NCBI RefSeq assembly: GCF_963920485.1
Contig: NZ_OY986431.1
Coordinates: forward strand, 310,001-374,000
From: Cyanobium usitatum str. Tous
GTDB lineage: Bacteria; Cyanobacteriota; Cyanobacteriia; PCC-6307; Cyanobiaceae
Direction: 5' to 3'
DNA length: 64,000 bases
Positions 51,024 to 62,330 of this stretch are shown piece after piece. The notes below the pieces were generated by a model, which saw nothing but the letters and a program-made list of their open reading frames with translations, had not been told where the DNA came from and searched no databases. The position numbers and the translations under genes were made by a program. The number at the start of each line of letters is the position of its first letter. Within the stretch, counting starts at the first letter, position 1.

Positions 51024-51125
51024 TCAGCCCATCACCGCCGCCAGCAGCCCCTCGTCGGCCTCCAGGTTGCTGGTGACGCTGCGCACAACACCGGCCCTGG
51101 AAACCCCCTGTTGGAGTGGGCAAAA
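51024..51125 (-). pseudogene. Possible C-terminal fragment of a host gene at the element boundary
   Basis: On the minus strand an open stretch of about 34 codons ends at a TGA at 51024-51026. It reads GVSRAGVVRSVTSNLEADEG and ends LLAAVMG, with host-like GC3 codon use. No start belongs to it on the left. It could be the tail of a gene interrupted when the element integrated. This is weak evidence: a short GC-rich frame can arise by chance. Confidence 0.22.
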
Positions 51126-51153: not shown

Positions 51154-51180
51154 GGGGTTGACCCCATGGCAGAGTGCCAT
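51154..51180. promoter_or_regulatory. Two adjacent inverted repeats upstream of the integrase
   Basis: GGGGT-TG-ACCCC (51154-51165) is followed immediately by ATGGCA-GAG-TGCCAT (51166-51180). Together they form a dyad-rich block 74 bases before the integrase ATG. They could be an operator or part of the recombination site. No direct repeat partner is visible in the window. Confidence 0.35.
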
Positions 51181-51253
51181 CTGCGGCCACCTGCAGCCGC
51201 TTTTGCTGCCGCTTTTGCGCTCGCCGCGGCCACCACCGACACCCCACTCCGCC

Positions 51254-52507
51254 ATGGCCCGCACCACCGCCCAGCCCTGGGAGAAGAACCTGCGCCAGTT
51301 GGTAAAGGCAACCCACGGCCGGGGCTGGAGCATGGGGCCGCACCGTGGTGGCCGCACTCAGCTCACCCGGCGGTTTAGCGACGGCAGCCGGGCCTCCGTC
51401 ACCACCGCCACGCCCTGGGCGCCGGCCAGCAGTCCATCCCTGCTGGCCCTGGTGGAGCGGATCGACGCCCTGATGCGCGAGCACCCGCAGCTGGGGCTGG
51501 CGGATGCGGCCCAGCGAGTCGGGGCCATCACCAGCACGGCATCGGCCGCCACCCTGCGCGAGGGGGCTGCTGACTGGGCCGAGCTGGCCGAGGGATTCCG
51601 CCGCTACCTGGTGGAACAGACCGCCCGGGTGAAGCCAAAAACGTGGAAGAACACCTATCGCCGCCACGTGGAGCAGACCCTGGCCGTGCTGGCCGGTAAG
51701 CCAGCCCCCCGCACTGGGCAGGCCGTGCTGGAGCGCCTGCTGGAGGCCCACCCCACCCCCGCCGGTGGCACTGGCCGCCGCGAGCGGCTCGGCAATGCAG
51801 CCAGGTTTCTGACCTGGGCCGTGGATCACGGCGGCGCGGCAGAGCGGTATCGGCCCCCGGCCAGCAGGCGCGAGCTGATCGGCCGCCGCGGCCAGGCCAA
51901 GCACCAGGGGGTGCCTCTGCGAGACGACCAGGCCCTACGGGTTTATCGGGCGATCGTGGATCCCCGCTGGCGGCTGGCCTGGGGGCTGCTGGTGGTGTTT
52001 GGCCTGCGCCCTGCCGAGCTCGGTGTGTGCCAGGCCGAGGGCAGCGTGCTGCGGGTTGGTGGTGTGAAAGCCAACAGCACGGGCGCCCACGGTTCTAGGC
52101 CGGTAAAGCCGCTCGACCCCCAGGGGGCTCCGGGGCTGGGCCGTGAGCTGCTGGCGGTGCTGGCCGAGCGCGGGCGGGATGCCTTGCCCCCCGATTGTGT
52201 TGCGGCGCTCTGGAGCACCCGGATGCAGCAGCAGCTGGTGCGCCACACCCCCGTGTGGGCAGATGTGCTGGCTGAGGCCGCGGCAACTAACCAGGGCCAC
52301 CTGACGGTTTATTCCACCCGGCACGGCTACGCCTGGCGCGGCGGGCAGGTCTACCTGCTCACCCCCAGGGTGCTGGCCAGCTTGATGGGTCACACGATCC
52401 AGGTCCACCTACGGCATTACGGGGAGGGAGCTGCCGAGGCGGAGGTGGCTGCTGCGGTCGATGCTGCTGTGGCCCGGGTGCACCAAATCCCGGCACGTGC
52501 GGGCTAG
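51254..52507 (+). CDS. Tyrosine recombinase / integrase
   Basis: 417 residues from ATG 51254 (MARTTAQPWEKN). An AP2-like arm domain (TQLTRRFSDGSRASVTTATPW) is followed by a SAM-like core-binding domain (VKPKTWKNTYRRHVEQTL). The catalytic domain has Arg in VVFGLRPAELG, a Tyr-x-x-Arg pair in VYSTRHGYAWRGG (the usual His is replaced by Tyr), LMGHTIQV and the nucleophile Tyr in LRHYGEG. The domain order and the RHGYAWRG pattern fit integrases of picocyanobacterial elements. It is the first gene of the element, reading into it. Confidence 0.9.
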   Translation: MARTTAQPWEKNLRQLVKATHGRGWSMGPHRGGRTQLTRRFSDGSRASVTTATPWAPASSPSLLALVERIDALMREHPQLGLADAAQRVGAITSTASAATLREGAADWAELAEGFRRYLVEQTARVKPKTWKNTYRRHVEQTLAVLAGKPAPRTGQAVLERLLEAHPTPAGGTGRRERLGNAARFLTWAVDHGGAAERYRPPASRRELIGRRGQAKHQGVPLRDDQALRVYRAIVDPRWRLAWGLLVVFGLRPAELGVCQAEGSVLRVGGVKANSTGAHGSRPVKPLDPQGAPGLGRELLAVLAERGRDALPPDCVAALWSTRMQQQLVRHTPVWADVLAEAAATNQGHLTVYSTRHGYAWRGGQVYLLTPRVLASLMGHTIQVHLRHYGEGAAEAEVAAAVDAAVARVHQIPARAG

Positions 52508-52904: not shown

Positions 52905-53186
52905 ATGAAAAATGCGATGCACCCCCGCGGGGGTGCTGATTCGTGGGTGCCGACAGGGCAGGCCATCAACGCCCTGGGCATCAGCCGCTCGACCCTCCAC
53001 CGGTGGGTGGGCTTGGGGTTGCTGGAGGCCGGCAGCCACTACCGCAACGGCCTAACCGCCAAATCACCGCGGCGCTGGAACGTGCAGGCCATGGAGGCCC
53101 GGATTGAGCAGCTGCGCAAGCTGCCGGATCCGCTGCGCCCTAACGCCGCCGATGACCAGGACCTGGTGGCCGCGGCCGACAACTGA
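52905..53186 (+). CDS. Helix-turn-helix DNA-binding protein (excisionase/AlpA-like)
   Basis: 93 residues. The centre reads VPTGQAINALGISRSTLHRWVGLGLLEAGSHYRNG, a MerR/AlpA-type helix-turn-helix with a recognition helix STLHRWV. This is the position and size expected for an excisionase or early regulator. The start is ATG 52905; ATG 52917 and GTG 52956 are alternatives. A perfect 18-bp palindrome (52919-52936) covers codons 5-11. Confidence 0.65.
   Translation: MKNAMHPRGGADSWVPTGQAINALGISRSTLHRWVGLGLLEAGSHYRNGLTAKSPRRWNVQAMEARIEQLRKLPDPLRPNAADDQDLVAAADN
52919..52936. repeat. Perfect 18-bp GC palindrome inside the start of the HTH gene
   Basis: GCACCCCCGCGGGGGTGC reads the same on both strands. 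As RNA it would form a strong hairpin just after the start codon, close to the one at 52876-52895. It might block translation or act as an autorepressor site. Confidence 0.5.
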
Positions 53187-53626: not shown

Positions 53627-53886
53627 TGGCCCGCCGTCACCGGCAACGCCCCTGGCCCAGCTCTGTGGAGCAGGCCCGGCTGGCGATGCCCCCCAGCAGC
53701 TGGGGCCACCTGCGGGCCCCCGGGCCCTGCCTTTGGTACGCCGGCAACCGCTGGCGCGAGGGCCTGGTGCTGGAGCTGCACCCCGAGCTGGGGGCCCTGG
53801 TGCTGGGGCAGCACTACGGCGGCCAGATCCGCGCCGATCGCATCACTGACGGCAGAAACGTTCAACCAATCCCGCAATCCCGATGA
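53626..53886 (+). CDS. Small basic element protein (86 aa)
   Basis: Not recognised. The N-terminus is strongly basic (MARRHRQRPW) and the middle is beta-rich (WYAGNRWREGLVLELHPELGALVLGQHYGGQIRADRI), suggestive of an SH3-like or nucleic-acid-binding barrel. The start overlaps the previous stop and the end overlaps the next start by four bases. Confidence 0.6.
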   Translation: MARRHRQRPWPSSVEQARLAMPPSSWGHLRAPGPCLWYAGNRWREGLVLELHPELGALVLGQHYGGQIRADRITDGRNVQPIPQSR

Positions 53887-54365
53887 CAGCAACAACAGCG
53901 ATCACCGCCTACGCCCCTGGCCAGGCCGTGATGGTGCAGGAAGAACCGCACCGGCCTGACACGTGGGCCATCGGCATGGTGACCCGCCCTACCGATCCGG
54001 AGTACGGGTGGACCAGCGCCGACGTTCGCACCAGCCCCAACTGCACCAGCAGCATGGTGCCGGGGTACGACCCTGGGAGCATCCGGCCGGCCACCGAGCA
54101 GGACATTGCCGCCCTGCCCGATTGGGCTCGGGAGTGGATCGAGCAGCAGCTGCTGGATCACCACAACCCCCGCGTGCCTGGTGACACCAAGGCGATCAGG
54201 GTGGCGCTCCGGGATGCCGGGATCCACCGGCTGGCGGATCTGCAGCGCGCTACCGATGCCGAGCTGCTGGCCCTGAAGGGCGTGGGCGCAAAGGCCGTCG
54301 CCACGCTGCGCCAGTGGCAGCAGAAGCGCGAGGCCAAGCTGCAGGGGGCCCGGGCCGATGCCTGA
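53883..54365 (+). CDS. Element protein with C-terminal helix-hairpin-helix domain
   Basis: 160 residues. The C-terminal 50 (LRDAGIHRLADLQRATDAELLALKGVGAKAVATLRQW) match a helix-hairpin-helix of the RNA-polymerase alpha-CTD/RuvA type, indicating DNA binding. The N-terminal 100 residues (YAPGQAVMVQEEPHRPDTWAIGMVTRP) look like a beta-rich module of unknown role. It is coupled by four-base overlap to the preceding gene and by eight bases to the next. Confidence 0.65.
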   Translation: MTATTAITAYAPGQAVMVQEEPHRPDTWAIGMVTRPTDPEYGWTSADVRTSPNCTSSMVPGYDPGSIRPATEQDIAALPDWAREWIEQQLLDHHNPRVPGDTKAIRVALRDAGIHRLADLQRATDAELLALKGVGAKAVATLRQWQQKREAKLQGARADA

Positions 54366-54594: not shown

Positions 54595-54937
54595 TCTGTG
54601 GACAGCACCCGGTTACGCCGTGCAGCGACCCGCCCGCCGCGGCCAATCCCATAACCCCGCACTTACGGGGCAATCCCGTGAGCGCCGGCCGGAGCCAGCA
54701 ACACCCCGGGCCGCGGCAGCAGAGCCCAATCCCCCGGGCCTGAGCGATCAGCAGCTGGCCGACCTGGCCACGTTGCGGCTGGAGCCCAGGCTGCCGGCCA
54801 ACGCCGATGCCCTGGCCCAGGCGATCACCAAGGCCTGGCCCACCACCAGCGCCAGCGACCCCCGCCTGAGCGGGTGGGGTTGGGAGCAGGTGCAGGCATA
54901 CCGCCGGCTACGGCAGCCGCTGCTGCGGCGGGGTTGA
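54587..54937 (+). CDS. Element protein (116 aa), unknown
   Basis: Starts at GTG 54587 inside the previous gene. Residues 1-60 are Pro/Arg/Ala-rich and probably disordered. Residues 65-116 (LSDQQLADLATLRLEPRLPANADALAQAITKAW) look like a small helical domain. No function assigned. Confidence 0.5.
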   Translation: MADLWTAPGYAVQRPARRGQSHNPALTGQSRERRPEPATPRAAAAEPNPPGLSDQQLADLATLRLEPRLPANADALAQAITKAWPTTSASDPRLSGWGWEQVQAYRRLRQPLLRRG

Positions 54938-55008
54938 TCCAAGCGGGCCGCCGGTGCGCCCTGGCCCCTGGCCTGAAGCCCGGCACTTCGATCCATCGCA
55001 ACGCCACC

Positions 55009-55227
55009 ATGGCCGACCAGCAACAGCAACAGCAACAACCCCGGGTGAAAATCTCCGGGCTCTGGACTAACACCACCCAGGCGGGCCAGGAATACTGGAG
55101 CGGGTCCAATGGATCTGTGCGCTACAGCATCTGGCCAAACGGATTTGCCAAGGGGCCGAATGACCCCACGCACGTGCTCTATTGCGAGCAGGTGCAGAAA
55201 AAGCCCGCCGATGCTGATCCGGGCTGA
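55009..55227 (+). CDS. Small element protein with polyglutamine start (72 aa)
   Basis: ATG 55009 gives MAD followed by seven Gln, then PRVKISGLWTNTTQAGQEYWSGSNGSVRYSI and HVLYCEQVQKK. This looks like a compact beta-rich domain of the size of a single-stranded-nucleic-acid or phage accessory protein. The same frame is open upstream to 54874, but that part is Ala-rich shadow. Followed by a terminator at 55272. Confidence 0.55.
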   Translation: MADQQQQQQQPRVKISGLWTNTTQAGQEYWSGSNGSVRYSIWPNGFAKGPNDPTHVLYCEQVQKKPADADPG

Positions 55228-55271
55228 TTGCAGTCAGGTGTAACTGCAGCCGTGTAATTTCACCGGCCGCG

Positions 55272-55296
55272 GCCTCCCAGAGCGGGGGGCTTTTTT
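55272..55296 (+). terminator. Rho-independent terminator ending the small-gene block
   Basis: GCCTCCC pairs with GGGGGGC (one G-U) around AGAGC and is followed by six T, 45 bases past the 55009-55227 gene. Confidence 0.75.
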
Positions 55297-55324
55297 AATG
55301 CCTGGCCGCCGATCCCCCAACAAA

Positions 55325-55363
55325 GTGGCACACCGTATCTGTGCCACGTGATGCCACGTGATG
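55325..55363. promoter_or_regulatory. Operator-like dyad with two direct CCACGTGATG repeats
   Basis: GTGGCACA-CCGTATC-TGTGCCAC (55325-55347) is a perfect 8-bp-arm inverted repeat. It runs into two tandem copies of the 10-mer CCACGTGATG (55344-55353 and 55354-55363). It lies between the terminator and the ribbon-helix-helix gene, about 97 bases upstream of its ATG, so it is a candidate operator for that regulator and possibly for the replication gene. Confidence 0.55.
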
Positions 55364-55459
55364 CCACGGTCAGATCAACTGGCACAGCTGGGGTTTGTGG
55401 CGGCGGTTGATTGCACAAAACAGCCTGCACACTGACAGCGGAGTCACCTGATTTGCCCC

Positions 55460-55693
55460 ATGCAAACACCCACCACAACCAAGGTCCTAAAGACACCCTG
55501 GCCGTCACGCGTCACTGTGCGCGTTAGCGGCGAAACGCACGGCCTGCTGCACACCATGGCGCGCGCCGAGGGCTACAAGTCTGCCGCCGACTTGGTGCGT
55601 TACTACCTGGCCAGGGGCATGGCCGCTGACGGCATTGATCCTCTGGAAGTGGGTCTGCTGCCGACGGATCACCAGCTGGTTAGTGACGACTGA
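55460..55693 (+). CDS. Ribbon-helix-helix-like regulator (77 aa)
   Basis: The start SRVTVRVSGETHGLLHTMARAEGYKSAADLVRYYLARGM has the beta-strand/two-helix pattern of CopG/Arc-type RHH DNA-binding proteins. It ends with an acidic tail (HQLVSDD). It is the gene immediately before the replication protein and probably controls its copy number, analogous to CopG regulators in plasmids (inference). Confidence 0.65.
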   Translation: MQTPTTTKVLKTPWPSRVTVRVSGETHGLLHTMARAEGYKSAADLVRYYLARGMAADGIDPLEVGLLPTDHQLVSDD

Positions 55694-55703
55694 GCAGCAA
55701 AAA

Positions 55704-55723
55704 CCCCCGGGAGCAACCGGGGG
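55704..55723 (-). other. Strong hairpin between the regulator and the replication gene
   Basis: CCCCCGG / CCGGGGG pairs around GAGCAA. On the plus strand it is flanked by A-runs on both sides, so it does not end a plus transcript. On the minus strand it is followed by five T, a terminator shape with no gene upstream of it. It may be an RNA attenuator of the replication gene, a counter-transcript terminator or a replication structure. Confidence 0.45.
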
Positions 55724-55747
55724 CCGGGCGAAAAAACACCTGCGCTA

Positions 55748-58700
55748 ATGATGGCACCCACAAGCACCCAGCAGTCACCACTCCACACCGCCGTTCTGGC
55801 TGCCCTGCAGGAGCACGGGACAGGACGCTGGCCTGCTGGTGTGGCCGCGGCGATTGCGGAGCAGGTGGGCAGCACACCCCGCAGCGTGAGCACCACCAAG
55901 TGCCTGCTGGCCAAGGGGAGGGCCGCCGACCCGGCCGAGCCCCCCGTGCCCGAGGTGGAGCAGCAGCTGGGCCTGGGCCTGCCAACTGCCAACGGCGTGC
56001 ACCAGGTGGGCGATCCCGAGGCCGATGCGCAGCGCGCCGCCCGGGGCAGCAAGCGCAAAACCAAGGCCGCGGCCAGCGCCCCCAACGACAACGGGGCACA
56101 AGCGGCTCCGGCGGCAGCCGTTACCCAGGTATCGGCCGAGGAGCCGGCGCCGCCAATACCTGCCGATGCGGCCGACCCGGTGGCCGAGGCCCTGGCCGAG
56201 CTCCAGCACAACGATGCGATCGGCCTGCAGCTGGTGGTGGATGGCAAGGCCCCCAGCAGCGCAGCCTGCCGTGCTGCTGGACTGCCCGGCACCTGGCGAT
56301 TGACCCGCTGGCCGCAGATCCGGGGGCTGGACCCCGAGCAGCTGCTGGCCAATCAGCAGGAGCAGGCCTCCACCGATGCGGCCCTGGAGCAGGGCATGGC
56401 CGACGGCGTGGCCCAGGCCCAGGCCGAGCGCGCCGAGCGCACGCAGCTATGCGAGCGGCACCGCCAGATCCTGCTGGCCAGCGCAATCACAGAGGAACGG
56501 ATCAGCCTCTGGGAAACGGTCGCTGACCCCAGGGATCTACCCCCTGCGCTGCAGAGCTGGGGCAAAAAGGCCGTGCCCTGCATGGCCACCACCTGGCTAA
56601 CGGTCAGCGGGGCGCTGGTGCCGCAGATCCGGGTGGACACGCCCATCCCCCTGAAGAACGGCCGCCCGGCCCGTTACCTGTTCCCCAAAGACAGCGGCGG
56701 CATCGTCGGCACCGATGCGGCCTTTGAGCGGGATTGGGGCAACGCCCACGTTCCGATGCTGATGGTGGAGGGCACCAAGCAGTTCCAGGCCGCGGCGAGC
56801 ACGATCAACCCCGAGGTGCCCTTTGCCATCCCGTTTGGCCTGGCCGGCTGCTGGGGCTGGAGCAGCGACCTGAAACCGAGCGCCGATTTGCTGGCGCTGC
56901 CGGTGGAGGGCCGGGACGTGCTGGTGGCTTTCGATGCGGATGTAGCCAGCAACTGGATGGTGTGGGAGGCCGCCAGGCGGCTGGAAAAGTATCTGCTGGG
57001 CGAGCTGATGGCCCGGTCAGTGCGGTTCCTGATCAACCCGGGCACCGGCGGCGCCAGCGATGGCCTGGACGATCTGCTGGGCCGCCAGCCAACCCTGGAG
57101 CGCCGGGTAAAGCTGCTGCGCCACCTGATCGACACCGCGATCGAGCACAAGGTGATCAAGGCCCCGAAACGGCCGGCCAAGCTCACCGCCTTTTTCGATG
57201 GCGCCAATTTCAAGCCGGCCAGCTGCCTGGACTACCTGAGCGGTGAAAACCACCTGGCGATGAGCGGCGACCAGTCGGTGGCGGTTTATCAGGGTGGGGT
57301 GTTCCACAACGGCACCAGCCTCTGGTGGACGCGGTTGGTATCGGAAACCCTGGGCGATGACTACCGGCCGGAGTTTGAGGCGAGCGTCACCAAGATTGCG
57401 CTGGCGCAGCTGAAAACCGAGGGGCTGGTGATTCCGTTCCAGCAGCCGCGGCCGGTGATCAATTTCCAGAACTGCCTGCTGGAGGTGCGGGAGCTGCTGC
57501 AGAGGGACCACACCCCCGAGCACCTGACGCTGATCCAACTGCCGCACCGGTGGAACCCGGCGGCGGAGTGCCCGGTGTTCCTGCGCTGGGTGGAGCAGGT
57601 AGCCCCGGGCCAGCTGGATGGCCTGCTGGATGTTTGCTGCCAGATGCTGGATCTATCGGAGTGGCCCCGGCTGATCGTGTTCCTGACGGGCCCGACCCGC
57701 AGCGGCAAGTCCACCTGGATCCGGATTCTGAACGCCCTGGTTGGCGCCCACCTGCGGGCCAATGTCAGCCTGCATGATCTGAGCCGATCGGGCCAGGACA
57801 AGTTCGCCACCAGCAGCCTGTTCGGAAAGGTGCTGAACACGTTTGCCGACCTATCTGCAGAGGATCTGCAGGATCTGTCGATGGTGAAAGTGCTCACTGG
57901 CGGTGATGAGTTTGAGGCCCAGCGCAAACACGGCCACCGGTTCCAGATGCGCAACCAGGCAATGCTGGTATTCAGCGCCAACACGGTGCCGGCCACCAGT
58001 GAGAGCAGCGGGGCGTTTCTGGCCCGGGTGGCCCACTTTGAGTTCCCGCACAGCTTCCAGGGCCGTGAGGACAAAACGATCGAGGAGCGGATCCTGCGGG
58101 ATGAAATCCCCGGCGTGTTGCGGCTGATGGTGGAGGCCCTGCACAAGCGAAAACAGCGGGGCAATTTCCTGCCGCTGGATGAGGGGCGGCAGCAAGCCTT
58201 CGCCGAGCGCACCGATCGGGTGCGGATGTTCCTGGCGGAGCGGACGGCGCCAGGTAAAAAGGGACCCCGGTGCATCCCCCGGTCGGAGCTTTATCAGCTG
58301 TTCTGCAGCTGGGTGGAGGAGGAGCACGGCGGCAAGGCCGGCCGGATCCTGGGCAAGCACAAGTTCAACGAACGGGTGCGGCTGGCGGGCGTGGGTGAGT
58401 TCAAGCCCGAGGGCGGATCGTGGCGCTGGGACCGGGTGGAGGTGGACCCCGAAACTGCCGAGCCGGCACCCCCCGAAACTGCCGAGCCTGGCGATGGTGT
58501 TGATAAGTCGGGGTTTGACGTTGATAAAGGCCCCGCCTCGGCACTTTCAGGGCCAAAACTGCCGAGCAAAACTGCCGAGGGTAAAACCGCTGTGGTGGAG
58601 CCGGTTCTGGTGGGTGGCGAAGCAGGGTCCACGGCAGTTTCGGCAGTTTCGCCCTATTGCACCACCCCTATACAGAACACTCAGCTGAAATTGAAACCGG

Positions 58701-60784
58701 CGCAATGGGTAGAAACTGCCGATACTGCCGAGGAATTGACAGAGGCCGCGGCGGTTGCTCCGGCCCTGCCGGCTGTGGTTGCCCCGGTGCCCCGGCCCTA
58801 TACAGGCCCTGCACGTGCGGGGTTGACCTACATCGCCGCGGCCGATCAGCTGCCCGACCCGGCCACCGTGCCGCTGCTGGTGGGCTTCGATCTGGAAACC
58901 TTTAACCGCCGCACCGATCTGCTGCGCCACAAGGCCAGCCTGTTCCCGTTCCTGGGCGGCGAGATCCGCCTGGCCCAGCTCCACGCCGACGGCCACACCC
59001 TGGTGATCGACGTGGCCCTGGTGGAGCAGGCCACCCCCGGCGCGGCCATCGCCTGGCTGGCTCAGATCGTGCGCAACCCCGAGCGCACTCTGGTTGGCCA
59101 CAACCTGCTGTTTGAGGCCACGCACCTGATCGCCGCCGGCATCCGGCCGCTGTGCCGCTGGTGGGACTCGATGCTGGCCAGCCAGACCCTGGGCGACTAC
59201 CCCGAGCACACCCTGGAGGCCGCGGCGGCCAACTACCTGGGCACCGCCCTGGACAAGGAGCTGCAGACCAGCGACTGGGGCAACGGGCTGACCGAGGCCC
59301 AGCTGCGCTACGCCGCCCTGGATGCCGAGGTGGTGCTGCCTCTGCGCGAGGCCCTGCACGCCGAGCTGGAGCGCACCGGCCAGGTGGAGGTGCACCGGCT
59401 GGACTGCCAGGTGATCTGCCCCGCCGCCGACGGCCAGGCCCGTGGGTTGGCGATTGATACCGAGGTGCTCGCCAAGGTGGAAGCGGAGGCCGCGGCCGCC
59501 CTGGCGCCGCTGCTGGATCAGCTGTACGCCGCGCTGGAGCCACACGGCCTGCCGCCCCGCGGCAAGACGCAGCCACACAAGGGCAACAAGTTCCCCGCGG
59601 CAATGGAGGCCGCCACCGGCCTGCAGCTGCGCAAGCGCGAGCCCGATAAAACGGGCGAGTGGGTGGAAAAAGTCAGCTGCTCCGCCGATGTGGTGGAGCT
59701 GTTCAAGGGGGTGCCGCTGATTGATCTGCTGCTCCAGATCCGGGATCTGGAAACCGCCGTGCAGCAGGCGGCCCAGCTGCGCCGCGATGTGGTGAGCGCC
59801 GGCGGGCGCACTTACCCCAACTACAACATCCTGGGGGCCAACACCGGCCGGATGACCACCTGCGGCCAGATCGGCGCCAAGGCCAGCGCCCCGTCAGACA
59901 CCGAGGTGTTCGGCCCCACAGCAGACAAGGCTGGCCAGCCCAAGCCGGTGAAGCTCCCGCAGATCGGCGCCAACTTCCAGGGTTTCCAGGCCCTGCTGAA
60001 AAAGGCCCTGTGCACCGGCGACCCCGCCAAGGTGCTGATTGACGCCGACTGGGACGGCCAGGAGATCCGCCTGCAGGCCAGCCCCAGGCTCTACAACGAC
60101 GGCGGCTACCGGCGCGAGGTGCTGCTGGGCGAGGACAGCCACACCAAGATGGCGCTGCTGCTGTTTGATCTGCCCCGCCCGGAGGGTGTGGTGCGCAAGC
60201 TCGTCGGCTGCACTGATGCCCAGCGGGCCGCTGCCAAGCCGGCCGGATTTTCCCTGCCATACGGTTGCGCGGCGGCATCGTTGCAAACCCGGCTATCGGC
60301 AGCGCAGGGCCAGCCGGTGCGCCGCTCCAAGGCGGAGGCCATTTACCGCCAGTGGCACCGCGACCACCGCGAGGTGTCGGCGCAGATGGACCACTGCGGC
60401 AACAACGTGGTGCGCGAGCGCCGTTCGATCGCCGGCCGCCGCATCTGCAGCCGCGGGAACAAGCCCGGCCCCGACGGTCGCCTGCCGGTGCACCGGATCG
60501 GCCGCACCAGCGGCGCCAACTGGCCCGTGCAGAGCAGTGGCAGAGATCTGCTGGCGGACGCCCTGGGTGATCTGTGGCTGGCCCTGGATGCCTACCCCGG
60601 CGCCCGCATCGTGGGGCTGATCCACGATGAGGTTCTGGTGGAGGCCCCCCGCGAGCTGGCCGAGCAGGTGCGCGACGTGGTGGTGGCCTGCATGAGCAGC
60701 GCCCGGCTCCAGGACAAATACCTGGGCGACGTGCCCCTAAAGGCCAGCGCCAAGATCGGCGACAGCTGGGGCGAGGTGCACTGA
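55748..60784 (+). CDS. Fused replication protein: TOPRIM/DUF3854-like primase region, SF3 helicase, DEDDy exonuclease and family A DNA polymerase
   Basis: 1678 residues. Residues 1-60 hold a winged-helix-like segment, and 60-150 are low complexity. The TOPRIM/DUF3854-like part has Glu in LMVEGTKQF (about 340) and an Asp-x-Asp in VAFDADVAS (about 395). The D5/SF3 helicase has Walker A GPTRSGKSTW (about 647), Walker B region LNTFADLS and sensor LVFSANTVP. A 120-residue linker follows. The exonuclease has VGFDLETF (about 1046), VGHNLLFEATHL and YAALDAEV. The polymerase has motif A LIDADWDGQEIRL (about 1431), motif B AAAKPAGFSLPYG and motif C GLIHDEVLVEA (about 1625). All polymerase motifs are intact. 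No frameshift or internal stop splits the domains. It is probably the element's own replisome; no primase catalytic proof is visible beyond the TOPRIM pattern. Confidence 0.9.
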   Translation: MMAPTSTQQSPLHTAVLAALQEHGTGRWPAGVAAAIAEQVGSTPRSVSTTKCLLAKGRAADPAEPPVPEVEQQLGLGLPTANGVHQVGDPEADAQRAARGSKRKTKAAASAPNDNGAQAAPAAAVTQVSAEEPAPPIPADAADPVAEALAELQHNDAIGLQLVVDGKAPSSAACRAAGLPGTWRLTRWPQIRGLDPEQLLANQQEQASTDAALEQGMADGVAQAQAERAERTQLCERHRQILLASAITEERISLWETVADPRDLPPALQSWGKKAVPCMATTWLTVSGALVPQIRVDTPIPLKNGRPARYLFPKDSGGIVGTDAAFERDWGNAHVPMLMVEGTKQFQAAASTINPEVPFAIPFGLAGCWGWSSDLKPSADLLALPVEGRDVLVAFDADVASNWMVWEAARRLEKYLLGELMARSVRFLINPGTGGASDGLDDLLGRQPTLERRVKLLRHLIDTAIEHKVIKAPKRPAKLTAFFDGANFKPASCLDYLSGENHLAMSGDQSVAVYQGGVFHNGTSLWWTRLVSETLGDDYRPEFEASVTKIALAQLKTEGLVIPFQQPRPVINFQNCLLEVRELLQRDHTPEHLTLIQLPHRWNPAAECPVFLRWVEQVAPGQLDGLLDVCCQMLDLSEWPRLIVFLTGPTRSGKSTWIRILNALVGAHLRANVSLHDLSRSGQDKFATSSLFGKVLNTFADLSAEDLQDLSMVKVLTGGDEFEAQRKHGHRFQMRNQAMLVFSANTVPATSESSGAFLARVAHFEFPHSFQGREDKTIEERILRDEIPGVLRLMVEALHKRKQRGNFLPLDEGRQQAFAERTDRVRMFLAERTAPGKKGPRCIPRSELYQLFCSWVEEEHGGKAGRILGKHKFNERVRLAGVGEFKPEGGSWRWDRVEVDPETAEPAPPETAEPGDGVDKSGFDVDKGPASALSGPKLPSKTAEGKTAVVEPVLVGGEAGSTAVSAVSPYCTTPIQNTQLKLKPAQWVETADTAEELTEAAAVAPALPAVVAPVPRPYTGPARAGLTYIAAADQLPDPATVPLLVGFDLETFNRRTDLLRHKASLFPFLGGEIRLAQLHADGHTLVIDVALVEQATPGAAIAWLAQIVRNPERTLVGHNLLFEATHLIAAGIRPLCRWWDSMLASQTLGDYPEHTLEAAAANYLGTALDKELQTSDWGNGLTEAQLRYAALDAEVVLPLREALHAELERTGQVEVHRLDCQVICPAADGQARGLAIDTEVLAKVEAEAAAALAPLLDQLYAALEPHGLPPRGKTQPHKGNKFPAAMEAATGLQLRKREPDKTGEWVEKVSCSADVVELFKGVPLIDLLLQIRDLETAVQQAAQLRRDVVSAGGRTYPNYNILGANTGRMTTCGQIGAKASAPSDTEVFGPTADKAGQPKPVKLPQIGANFQGFQALLKKALCTGDPAKVLIDADWDGQEIRLQASPRLYNDGGYRREVLLGEDSHTKMALLLFDLPRPEGVVRKLVGCTDAQRAAAKPAGFSLPYGCAAASLQTRLSAAQGQPVRRSKAEAIYRQWHRDHREVSAQMDHCGNNVVRERRSIAGRRICSRGNKPGPDGRLPVHRIGRTSGANWPVQSSGRDLLADALGDLWLALDAYPGARIVGLIHDEVLVEAPRELAEQVRDVVVACMSSARLQDKYLGDVPLKASAKIGDSWGEVH
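58451..58732. repeat. Iteron-like cluster (core AAACTGCCGA) inside the replication gene
   Basis: Direct copies: GAAACTGCCGAG at 58451 and 58475, the tandem 13-mers CAAAACTGCCGAG at 58554 and 58567, GAAACTGCCGA at 58712 and GATACTGCCGAG at 58721. Inverted copies: CTCGGCACTTTC at 58537 (one mismatch) and CGGCAGTTTC at 58632 and 58641. Copies are read in different frames (Glu-Thr-Ala-Glu in two, Lys-Leu-Pro-Ser in one, Lys-Thr-Ala-Glu in the next), so conservation is at DNA level. They encode the disordered helicase-exonuclease linker. Candidate replication origin or Rep-binding array. Confidence 0.75.
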
Positions 60785-61872
60785 TGGCCCTGCGCACCCC
60801 CACCGCGATCCGCCCCTGGTCGCTGCCCGAGCTCGGCCACGTTCTGCGGGCCTGCGCCGGTGTCCGCGGCAAGCACCGCCAACTGGGCCAGGCGGTGCTG
60901 CAGATGGCGCTGCTGGAGCTCGCCTGCACCGATGACCCACCCCGGGCCGCTGGCCTGGTGGAGCGTGTCGCAAACGGCAGCAAAAAGGCCGCGGCCGAGA
61001 TCACCGCCCTGCTGGACGCCCACCACCAGCTGGTGGTGCAGGCGCCCCCTGCAGCACCGCCACCACCACCGCTGGATGCCAACGGCTGGGCCCAGACCTA
61101 CGAACCGGCGCCAGCCCCACCGGCACCAGACACCCCGGTGGCGGAGTCTGTGGCGGCCTGGCTGCAGCAGCGCGGCCGCACAAGTACGCCAGCTCCACCA
61201 GCACCTGCCCCTGCACCAACGCCGGCGGCCTGGGCGCTACCCCCTGTCAGCAGGCCGCCCAAGCGGCCGTGCCCCCGCCACGTGATCGGCCGCCGTGCCC
61301 TGGCCCACTGGGTGACCGAGGGTGCCTGGCCTGCGGCGATCACCGGCACCAGCGTGGCCGCCGCTTACCGGCGGACGTTCGGCACCAAGCCACCCCCGGA
61401 GCTGCTCCACGGGCACCAGTTCGGCGCCAGCTGCGCCTACACCCGCCGGGAGCTGGAGATGCTGATGGCCGCCATGGTGCTGGCCGCCAGAACACCCCTG
61501 CCCCTGCCGCCGCCGGCGCCGCCCCTGATGGGCCCTTTCCGGGATTGGGTAAAGCCAGCGCCACCCCAGCCCAAGCCGGAGCTCAAGCCAGCCAAACCCC
61601 AGCCCGACGCCCACCTGCCGGCCCGCCAGAACCTTGCCCCCTGCCCCAGGGGCACCGAGCGCCACCGCATCGTGCACTGGATCGCCCAAAGCCTGATCGA
61701 CCCCGCCGCCCTGGGCTACCCCACCAGTGGCCTGGCTGGCGCAGTTGCCGCGGCCTACCGCCGCCTGTTTGGTGATCGGCTCCCGGCGCGGGACCCCACC
61801 TGCAGATCGTTCTGCATTTACTCCCGCCGGGAGATTGCCCTGATCGCCGCCAACATCAGCCCGCGGCAGTAA
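60784..61872 (+). CDS. Element protein with a duplicated unknown domain (362 aa)
   Basis: Start overlaps the replication-protein stop by one base. Residues 1-85 are helical (LPELGHVLRACAGVRGKHRQL). Two related modules of about 70 residues lie at 161-232 and 286-358, separated by Pro/Ala linkers: each has Cys-Pro-Arg, a Trp-containing helix (LAHWVTEG; IVHWIAQS), AAAYRRTFG or AAAYRRLFG, then Cys-x-Tyr-(T/S)-RRE. The duplication and basic AAYRR helices suggest DNA binding. No known family is recognised. Coupling to the polymerase hints at a replication partner. Confidence 0.6.
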   Translation: MALRTPTAIRPWSLPELGHVLRACAGVRGKHRQLGQAVLQMALLELACTDDPPRAAGLVERVANGSKKAAAEITALLDAHHQLVVQAPPAAPPPPPLDANGWAQTYEPAPAPPAPDTPVAESVAAWLQQRGRTSTPAPPAPAPAPTPAAWALPPVSRPPKRPCPRHVIGRRALAHWVTEGAWPAAITGTSVAAAYRRTFGTKPPPELLHGHQFGASCAYTRRELEMLMAAMVLAARTPLPLPPPAPPLMGPFRDWVKPAPPQPKPELKPAKPQPDAHLPARQNLAPCPRGTERHRIVHWIAQSLIDPAALGYPTSGLAGAVAAAYRRLFGDRLPARDPTCRSFCIYSRREIALIAANISPRQ

Positions 61873-61907
61873 CCAACAACGCCAACATCCGCCGGCAGAA
61901 TTACCCC

Positions 61908-62330
61908 ATGACCGCCAACATCCCCGACAAAGATTCCCCAGGGTGGGAAACCTGGGCAGCTGAGCACCCGCTGCACAAGGCGGTGGTGGGGCCCCGCCCC
62001 AGCCAGGCGGTGATCGCCCTGCGGGTGGAGCAGATGGTTGGCTGGATCGGCTCCTGCCGCACCCGGCCAACGATGCTGCAAATGGCGGCAGAGCAGTGGG
62101 GTGTGAGCCTGCGCTCTTTTGATGCCGTTCACGCCGAGGCGGTGCGGGAGTTGAAGCGCAAGTTCAACCAGGACCGGCCCGATTTCCTGAGCCAGAAGCT
62201 GGAGCAGCTGGAGCACCTGATCCAGGCCGGGCTCGACAGCGGCCAGCTATCGGCCGCGGCAGGCGCGATGAACCTGCTCCTGAAAGCCACCGGTTGCGAC
62301 GACCCCACCAAGCAGCCCAAACAGCGATGA
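61908..62330 (+). CDS. Terminase small-subunit-like protein
   Basis: 140 residues. An N-terminal helix-turn-helix (TMLQMAAEQWGVSLRSFDAVHAEAVRELKRK) is followed by a helical tail (LSQKLEQLEHLIQAGLDSGQLSAAAGAMNLLLKATG) whose spacing matches the HTH-plus-helical-repeat layout of phage TerS and related regulators. A plain HTH regulator is the alternative. No large terminase or capsid gene is seen. Its stop overlaps the next start by four bases. Confidence 0.5.
   Translation: MTANIPDKDSPGWETWAAEHPLHKAVVGPRPSQAVIALRVEQMVGWIGSCRTRPTMLQMAAEQWGVSLRSFDAVHAEAVRELKRKFNQDRPDFLSQKLEQLEHLIQAGLDSGQLSAAAGAMNLLLKATGCDDPTKQPKQR

Follow-up and report, generated by a model that had tools for sequence, protein, structure and literature searches.

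Single-chain replicases are a known kind of protein. Pfprex, of apicomplexan apicoplasts, is one product with primase, helicase, exonuclease and polymerase parts. The exonuclease-polymerase (exo-PolA) part of the cyanobacterial protein described here has few nearer relatives of solved structure than the Pfprex polymerase, whereas the primase-helicase of Pfprex belongs to a different family and the Pfprex product, encoded by a nuclear gene, is cleaved. In the accessible part of PMC7689252, Pfprex is named beside a viral polyprotein, the 1606-aa ORF36 of OS3173/TOSV, a Pyrovirus and a virus of thermophiles. As in our protein, an N-terminal primase/helicase-like part with Walker motifs precedes a 3'-5' exonuclease and PolA in one chain, and, as in our family, unfused relatives exist; unlike in our protein, the viral helicase part is of the DUF927/COG5519 type, and that part of the paper mentions no intragenic origin. 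For GP55 of the lactococcal phage 1706, a single chain has been shown in vitro to act as helicase, primase, exonuclease and polymerase (PMC12205980, in the text accessible). It shares with our protein the joining of four replication functions, which in our case are read from sequence alone, but it has an AEP-type primase, a family B polymerase and the order helicase-primase-polymerase.

In a PICI origin, an AT-rich region lies between two sets of iterons, directly 3' of the initiator gene; the pri-rep-ori modules of PICI/SaPI elements occur with int and xis, with primase and initiator sometimes fused and terS sometimes present (PMC6092414, partial text). Our locus resembles this layout in its sequence, and the SaPI5 primase-helicase is the first fold match of its primase-helicase; it differs in that the origin-like array lies inside the gene and in that an exonuclease-polymerase is fused behind. 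For the intragenic position, phage lambda provides a precedent, since the iterons and AT-rich region of its ori lie within the initiator gene O (PMC5043065, partial text); O, however, is an initiator only, and the helicase comes from the host. Finally, the plasmids pAL20118a, pDongsha4a and pGM04 (Cyanobacterium, Geminocystis) share the order of helicase and then exo-PolA, but as two genes, a helicase gene annotated as DnaB-like standing directly before the exo-PolA gene.

The replicase is encoded on the plus strand at 55748–60784 of the window, by which we mean the whole stretch of 64,000 nucleotides analysed (positions 310001–374000 of the single-contig 2.66-Mb genome G000). The gene is a single uninterrupted ORF of 1678 aa, recognised by Pfam and PHROG profiles. 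The PHROG profile "DNA primase" covers residues 235–937 (1.7e-91) and "DNA polymerase" residues 1044–1676 (8.1e-65), while NCBIfam TIGR01613 scores 107.3 bits, slightly below its cut-off of 108.7. A sequence-only reading of this DNA had proposed four replication modules in one uninterrupted frame, and the domain matches bear it out.

The N-terminal half contains the helicase (residues 559–753, 57422–58006, plus strand), with Pfam matches to D5_N at residues 559–618 (E 3.7e-6) and DUF5906/SF3 at 646–753 (E 1.4e-14). SF3 helicases are marked by a Walker A, an acidic motif B, KxLTGGD, a sensor Asn and an Arg finger; Pfam, alignment and motif scan together place our protein in the D5/DUF5906, P4-type branch of this class. 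The Walker A GPTRSGKST at residue 648 (57689–57715) and the sensor Asn, in FSANTVP at 742, were recognised in the earlier reading, and G648, G653, K654 and N745 are indeed unchanged across the five proteins aligned (ours and four others). The same reading called the region upstream TOPRIM/DUF3854-like. In our copy the DUF3854 match (residues 332–445, 56741–57082, plus strand) is weak, at E 0.048 and under the family cut-off, but DUF3854 is significant in homologues (L025 2.5e-9, L030 2.3e-7, L024 3.6e-8), and E341 and D396-x-D398 are invariant in the aligned proteins; the assignment as a candidate primase region rests on these two observations. In Toprim-type primases, a Glu and a DxD carried on a Toprim fold are the catalytic residues. 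The first 170 or so residues of our protein are without equivalent in the four homologues of the alignment.

The exonuclease domain (residues 1044–1215, 58877–59392, plus strand) matches DNA_pol_A_exo1 at residues 1071–1208 (E 7.4e-18) and has the motifs FDLET at 1047 and YAALDA at 1188. It had been named a DEDDy exonuclease, a name that implies D, E, D, D and Tyr; the domain stands, whereas the ExoII residue is Glu (GHNLLFE) in place of Asp. This Glu is found in ten of the 11 proteins with a readable motif (L035, which is cut, being left out), the exception with Asp being L027. Because of this replacement, proofreading is possibly weaker than the name implies. The family A polymerase domain (residues 1417–1676, 59996–60775, plus strand; DNA_pol_A, E 7.4e-25) retains motifs A (D1434/E1439), B (K1497-F1501-Y1505) and C (H1626-D1627-E1628), all intact as previously claimed. 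Structure prediction, one of the checks suggested for the chain, was informative for one half: the primase-helicase model is of moderate quality (pLDDT 74.9, pTM 0.66) and matches the SaPI5 primase-helicase first (E 5.5e-13, TM 0.39/0.58), whereas the exo-PolA model is too poor to use (pLDDT 51). The SaPI5 sequence match is confined to the helicase part and the fold comparison comes without aligned ranges, and the Toprim-like region stays a candidate. By sequence, the best solved match of the exo-PolA part is 8jrb (196 bits); Prex reaches 161 bits, against 128 for Klenow.

The gene lies within a 17.6-kb stretch that is an integrated element. A perfect 33-bp repeat, at window positions 51052–51084 and at G000:378619, bounds 17,567 bp, with about the last quarter beyond the window. 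The right copy lies at the 3' end of yebC, identified through its product YebC. In five of six loci of same-genus relatives, both flanks are contiguous around one att copy (L116 only partly), and it is this empty site that identifies the stretch as integrated. Directly inside the left att site, a tyrosine-recombinase-type integrase is encoded at 51158–52507 (plus strand; phrog_1 integrase, 8.8e-13, with no Pfam match above cut-off), followed by a small excisionase/MerR-like HTH protein at 52905–53186 (plus strand; weak family matches). Both have homologues in other loci, upstream of the replicase in L022, L027, L028, L029 and L066. A small helix-hairpin-helix protein at 53883–54365 (plus strand; HHH_5, 2.8e-5, below cut-off) matches with its N-terminal third the stretch just upstream of the L022 replicase (4e-4), and its HHH part also matches a PHROG "head protein" profile (0.0025).

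Downstream, the ORF of a 362-aa protein of unknown family (60784–61872) overlaps the stop codon of the replicase by its final base; we find no homologue of it among the related loci searched. It is followed at 61908–62330 (plus strand) by a small HTH-like protein which we tentatively regard as a terminase small subunit. All six of its homologues match phrog_34910, of unknown function, and one of the six matches a terS family at E 0.036; in L022, L029, L035, L037 and L066, a homologue is encoded behind the replicase or polymerase gene. This protein has no match in the PDB, nor relatives in a viral scan. PICI satellites do not have a full set of structural genes; here, no TerL, portal or capsid match is found among the 15 element ORFs scanned with PHROGs. 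On the basis of the integrase, the excisionase-like gene and perhaps the terS-like gene, the element resembles a PICI-type satellite; an integrase with a specific att site is present, as in PICIs, and we assign PICI membership tentatively. A tycheposon, which according to the accessible part of PMC10872708 has a tRNA at its border and a tyrosine recombinase, was considered and rejected: the 33-bp repeat, the identity of YebC and the sites in relatives place att in yebC, not in a tRNA, so that the target of the element is the 3' end of a protein gene. Beyond the window, yet inside the element, a minus-strand gene (L021:4196-5392, equal to G000:376196-377392) encodes a repetitive GTINTGDGNDII-type protein; possibly cargo, it has the top DNA repeat count of a 20-kb stretch. 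We consider it rather likely, if by no great measure, that the replicase is the replication gene of this PICI-like element and works as a one-gene replicon.

The chain is not unique to this genome. With an alignment of the exo-PolA module (A2, threshold E 1e-30), 18 of 400 genomes of the family match, at 19 places. Eight places lie in open frames of at least 1436 aa (in G000, G004, G675, G064, twice in G054, in G124 and in G075), seven in frames of 675–677 aa, all in genus g35, and four in shorter or broken frames (G227, G120, G141, G156). The whole protein finds 15 of 300 genomes at 1e-20, and phylum-wide 10 of 386 match, four of them outside the family with frames of 582–869 aa. Peptide-pattern scans of genome and viral contigs with the whole chain returned no relatives, so alignments were needed to find them; A2 gave no match in viral contigs. 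Four g35 loci (L031, L032, L033 and L034) have a stand-alone exo-PolA of 650–654 aa with shared neighbours, and no other ORF above 381 aa is among those listed there.

The module order recurs, which the earlier reading had named as what would support it: G004 (1436 aa, SF3 helicase by Pfam) and G675 (1479 aa, assigned by its alignment to residues 246–1678 at 40% identity) both have the complete SF3-type four-module chain. Other fused frames carry other helicases. Pfam finds an AAA_25 ATPase in G124 and in both G054 copies, the N-termini of which can be aligned to our replicase (with a DUF3854 match in G124 only); G064 has a VapE-like helicase; and in G075 an AAA_25 follows an AEP primase that resembles the one of cyanophage S-2L (6zp9, E 4.7e-32). 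A winged-helix match after the helicase is found in AAA_25 members only, and above cut-off only in L027. In G195, an SF3 primase-helicase is joined to another PolA lineage, which has no match to our polymerase and is 42% identical to the PolA of phage locus L080. The locus L023:5954-10657 combines an S-2L-like AEP PrimPol, an AAA_25 ATPase, an exonuclease and a PolA with HDA as motif C; its linker is without iterons.

Module exchange extends to phages. The primase-helicase alignment finds 27 IMG/VR loci, 25 of which were analysed after L087 and L094, cut by contig ends, had been dropped (L093 is also cut, and L095 and L099 begin at most 20 bp from a contig end). A DUF3854-type N-terminus and PolA share one frame in 15 of the 25, a fusion called by Pfam in seven and by homology in the other eight; ten are not fused. 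SF3 helicases occur in three of the 15 (L080, L082, L088). The sequence-only reading had regarded a full four-module fusion as unusual; these phage fusions, the 1606-aa viral polyprotein and Pfprex show that proteins of this kind have precedents. In two phage contigs of one metagenome (IMG/VR 3300031507), the primase-helicase genes are 93% identical in DNA, but in L082 the gene is fused to PolA (1365 aa) and in L083 PolA is separate, about 0.5 kb downstream, the two PolAs being 36% identical. Judged by these identities, modules were swapped or fused here within a short time. The primase-helicase and PolA genes adjoin in Streptomyces phage TP1604. In Actinoplanes phage phiAsp2, the 4248-bp Pas55, which carries the label of a putative DNA polymerase in its deposited record, has matches to both the primase and the polymerase end of L102. 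Four phage loci, L089, L090, L102 and L106, have a DUF3854-type N-terminus fused to PolA in 1383–1533 aa with a middle without Pfam match; L089 and L102 have PHROG matches of unknown function.

The primase-helicase tree places our protein as sister to two stand-alone G048 proteins (100/98). In the exo-PolA trees our polymerase groups with that of G075 (97/98 and 99/98), while the polymerases of G004 and G675 fall among those that marine Synechococcus encodes as separate proteins. These trees contain long branches, one of them our own row, the exact place of which is unsure. A single origin of all SF3 fusions is rejected: a clade of the polymerases of our chain, L022 and L066 has an AU p of 4.6e-6 (22 rows), 9e-4 without L023 and 6e-51 with 16 rows. 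That one and the same exo-PolA module has been joined to helicases of several kinds, and that the polymerases of the SF3 fusions do not form a single clade, looks new.

Between L022 and L066, dN/dS is 0.088, 0.069, 0.058 and 0.095 across the four modules, with the last value for the polymerase, and 0.27–0.42 between helicase and exonuclease. This purifying selection argues that all four modules are in use. Not every member need have every activity, though, given the HDA motif C of L023 and the L022 and L066 proteins, which have GEARAGKGL in place of the Walker A GxxxxGKS/T (two of the 14 SF3-type proteins examined). The ATPase of these two (L022:9368-13678 and L066:2790-7229) appears doubtful from this motif, Ser/Thr being absent despite a helicase dN/dS of 0.069. 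L022/L066 and L027/L028 are not independent pairs.

It could be that the role of the polymerase is limited to repair or to starting synthesis, the element being copied by the host polymerase and the replicase being essentially an initiator. SaPI-type elements do not encode a polymerase, and the host genome encodes a separate PolA. We nevertheless consider this explanation rather unlikely, as the PolA motifs are retained, the polymerase is under the purifying selection just described (0.095, L022 versus L066), and PolA has been joined repeatedly to different helicases. On the reading that we prefer, a one-gene replicon, the element would supply its own polymerase rather than borrow one.

The most unusual part of the gene, absent from the earlier reading, is an iteron array in the DNA that encodes the linker between helicase and exonuclease. 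We noticed it through a dip in GC3, which is 0.80–0.94 in every 100-codon step of the gene save for 0.54 at residues 901–1000. The array, a candidate origin (58450–58732), contains six exact copies of AAACTGCCGA and three with one mismatch, in both orientations, all between 58452 and 58731. Exact copies number eight genome-wide, of which six fall within about 270 bp of linker; with up to one mismatch, the window contains 12 against 3.47 expected, nine of them in the linker. Two inverted pairs, each 9 bp from start to start and with 73–74 bp between the inner starts, enclose a spacer at 58654–58711 that is AT-richer than the gene (48% versus 68% GC) and a candidate melting site. The inverted-pair layout is common to our gene, L025 and L026, the proteins of which are 45 and 42% identical to ours. 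In its sequence layout, with two iteron sets that flank an AT-rich region, the array resembles PICI origins, but it lies inside the fused gene and not 3' of rep. This layout in linker DNA, with iterons around the most AT-rich stretch of the gene, looks new.

Linker repeats are widespread in the family. In eight of nine picocyanobacterial fused genes the linker is the strongest repeat peak of the scanned stretch (64 kb in the case of the window), and its repeat density is reached by none of 200 synonymous-codon shuffles. The exception is L023, which has no linker repeats although it is fused and has the PolA nearest to ours in the trees. The lowest-GC 60 bp of the ORF falls in the linker or tail in eight of ten genes, with a tie in L022 and another position in L066. 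Among stand-alone primase-helicases, L025 passes the shuffle test and L026 fails it (26 of 200) yet has inverted pairs; two stand-alone polymerases have no such repeats. In fused phage genes the repeat peak lies in the linker in two of 15 (L080, L089). The type of iteron tracks the helicase rather than the polymerase: genes with SF3 have A(A)ACTGCC types, those with AAA_25 have GATTCCACCC or GGACACCCC, and VapE goes together with GGTTCCAAA. That the iterons are a by-product of protein repeats is excluded by the synonymous shuffles and by the inverted copies, which encode other residues.

Iterons also have control roles in plasmids, and the array might instead be an operator or copy-control site for the replicase or a repressor, with the true origin elsewhere in the element. 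Other repeats do exist there: the repetitive gene further right, beyond the window, peaks at 208 versus 33 for the linker, and of the two stretches scanned, 54900–55800 and 60700–62000, the latter contains nine looser direct-repeat families of two to three copies, most 72–88% alike. The former, upstream of the gene, is without direct repeats of at least 14 nt, and the GC minimum of the gene lies between the inverted pairs, as in PICI origins. We therefore hold a control site to be unlikely and take the array as the probable origin.

The inferred fusion junction lies at residues ~1004–1013 (58757–58786, plus strand), where sequence resembling the L025 tail gives way to the exo-PolA module. Our linker aligns with the tail of the stand-alone L025 protein at a score of 116, and none of 1000 shuffles exceeds 69; L026 is matched less well (its score is reached by 11 of 1000 shuffles, and by 785 of 1000 with a narrower query), while the linker of L023 scores 87 (reached by 0 of 1000), chiefly through the first part of the polymerase module. 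This long linker, which resembles the tail of a stand-alone primase-helicase, would also suit a polyprotein from which primase-helicase and exo-PolA are released as two proteins, as is stated for Pfprex in the accessible text of PMC7689252, so that fusion would matter only for co-expression. Unfused neighbour genes in the same order in plasmids and phages fit such cleavage too; two coupled genes would, however, suffice for co-expression, yet fusion recurs with different partners, and we judge cleavage quite unlikely and the chain more probably uncut. That the gene is an assembly or sequencing artefact or decaying is next to negligible: broken polymerase-module copies do exist (G120 with two stops, fragments in G141 and G156), but an assembly error, named earlier as what would overturn the fusion, is ruled out by the single contig, by the same four-module chain in G004 and G675 and by coding GC3 throughout except in the linker, and decay is opposed by this GC3 and by the purifying selection between relatives.

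We propose that, once the element is excised at its yebC att sites, the chain would bind the iterons inside its own gene, in the DNA coding for the helicase-polymerase linker, probably via a DNA-binding region directly after the helicase. Melting of the AT-rich spacer and unwinding would fall to SF3 hexamers, priming to the Toprim-like region and extension of the primers to the tethered exo-PolA module. As for ancestry, a primase-helicase gene of the pri-rep-ori type may have acquired an exo-PolA module at its downstream end; because the module joined just behind such an origin, the origin would have been trapped mid-gene, in the linker, and such joins would have been repeated with different helicases.

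The fusion alone is not new, since OS3173 ORF36, Pfprex and GP55 are known and fusions recur in phage contigs. Among the matches listed from the openly licensed literature, which touched little on origins, no title concerns fusions of PolA and helicase in picocyanobacteria or a fused replicase gene with an internal origin, and no listed title combines exchangeable helicases with an integrated element and a PICI-like origin of intragenic position. Whether our chain is a complete one-gene replicon (initiator, primase, helicase, proofreading polymerase and linker-encoded origin), and one member of a plug-and-play family in which one polymerase module has been combined in turn with helicases of SF3, VapE-like or AAA_25 type and with primases of Toprim or AEP type, iterons of their own travelling along in most cases, is in our estimate nearly evenly balanced, with a slight lean in favour.

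If this is true, one 5-kb gene is enough for a mobile element to replicate. Such a replicon would be a very compact replication tool and would help to explain the spread of satellites of this kind. The family also makes two matters testable: the reason for tethering helicase to polymerase, and how the origin travels with the helicase in module swaps.
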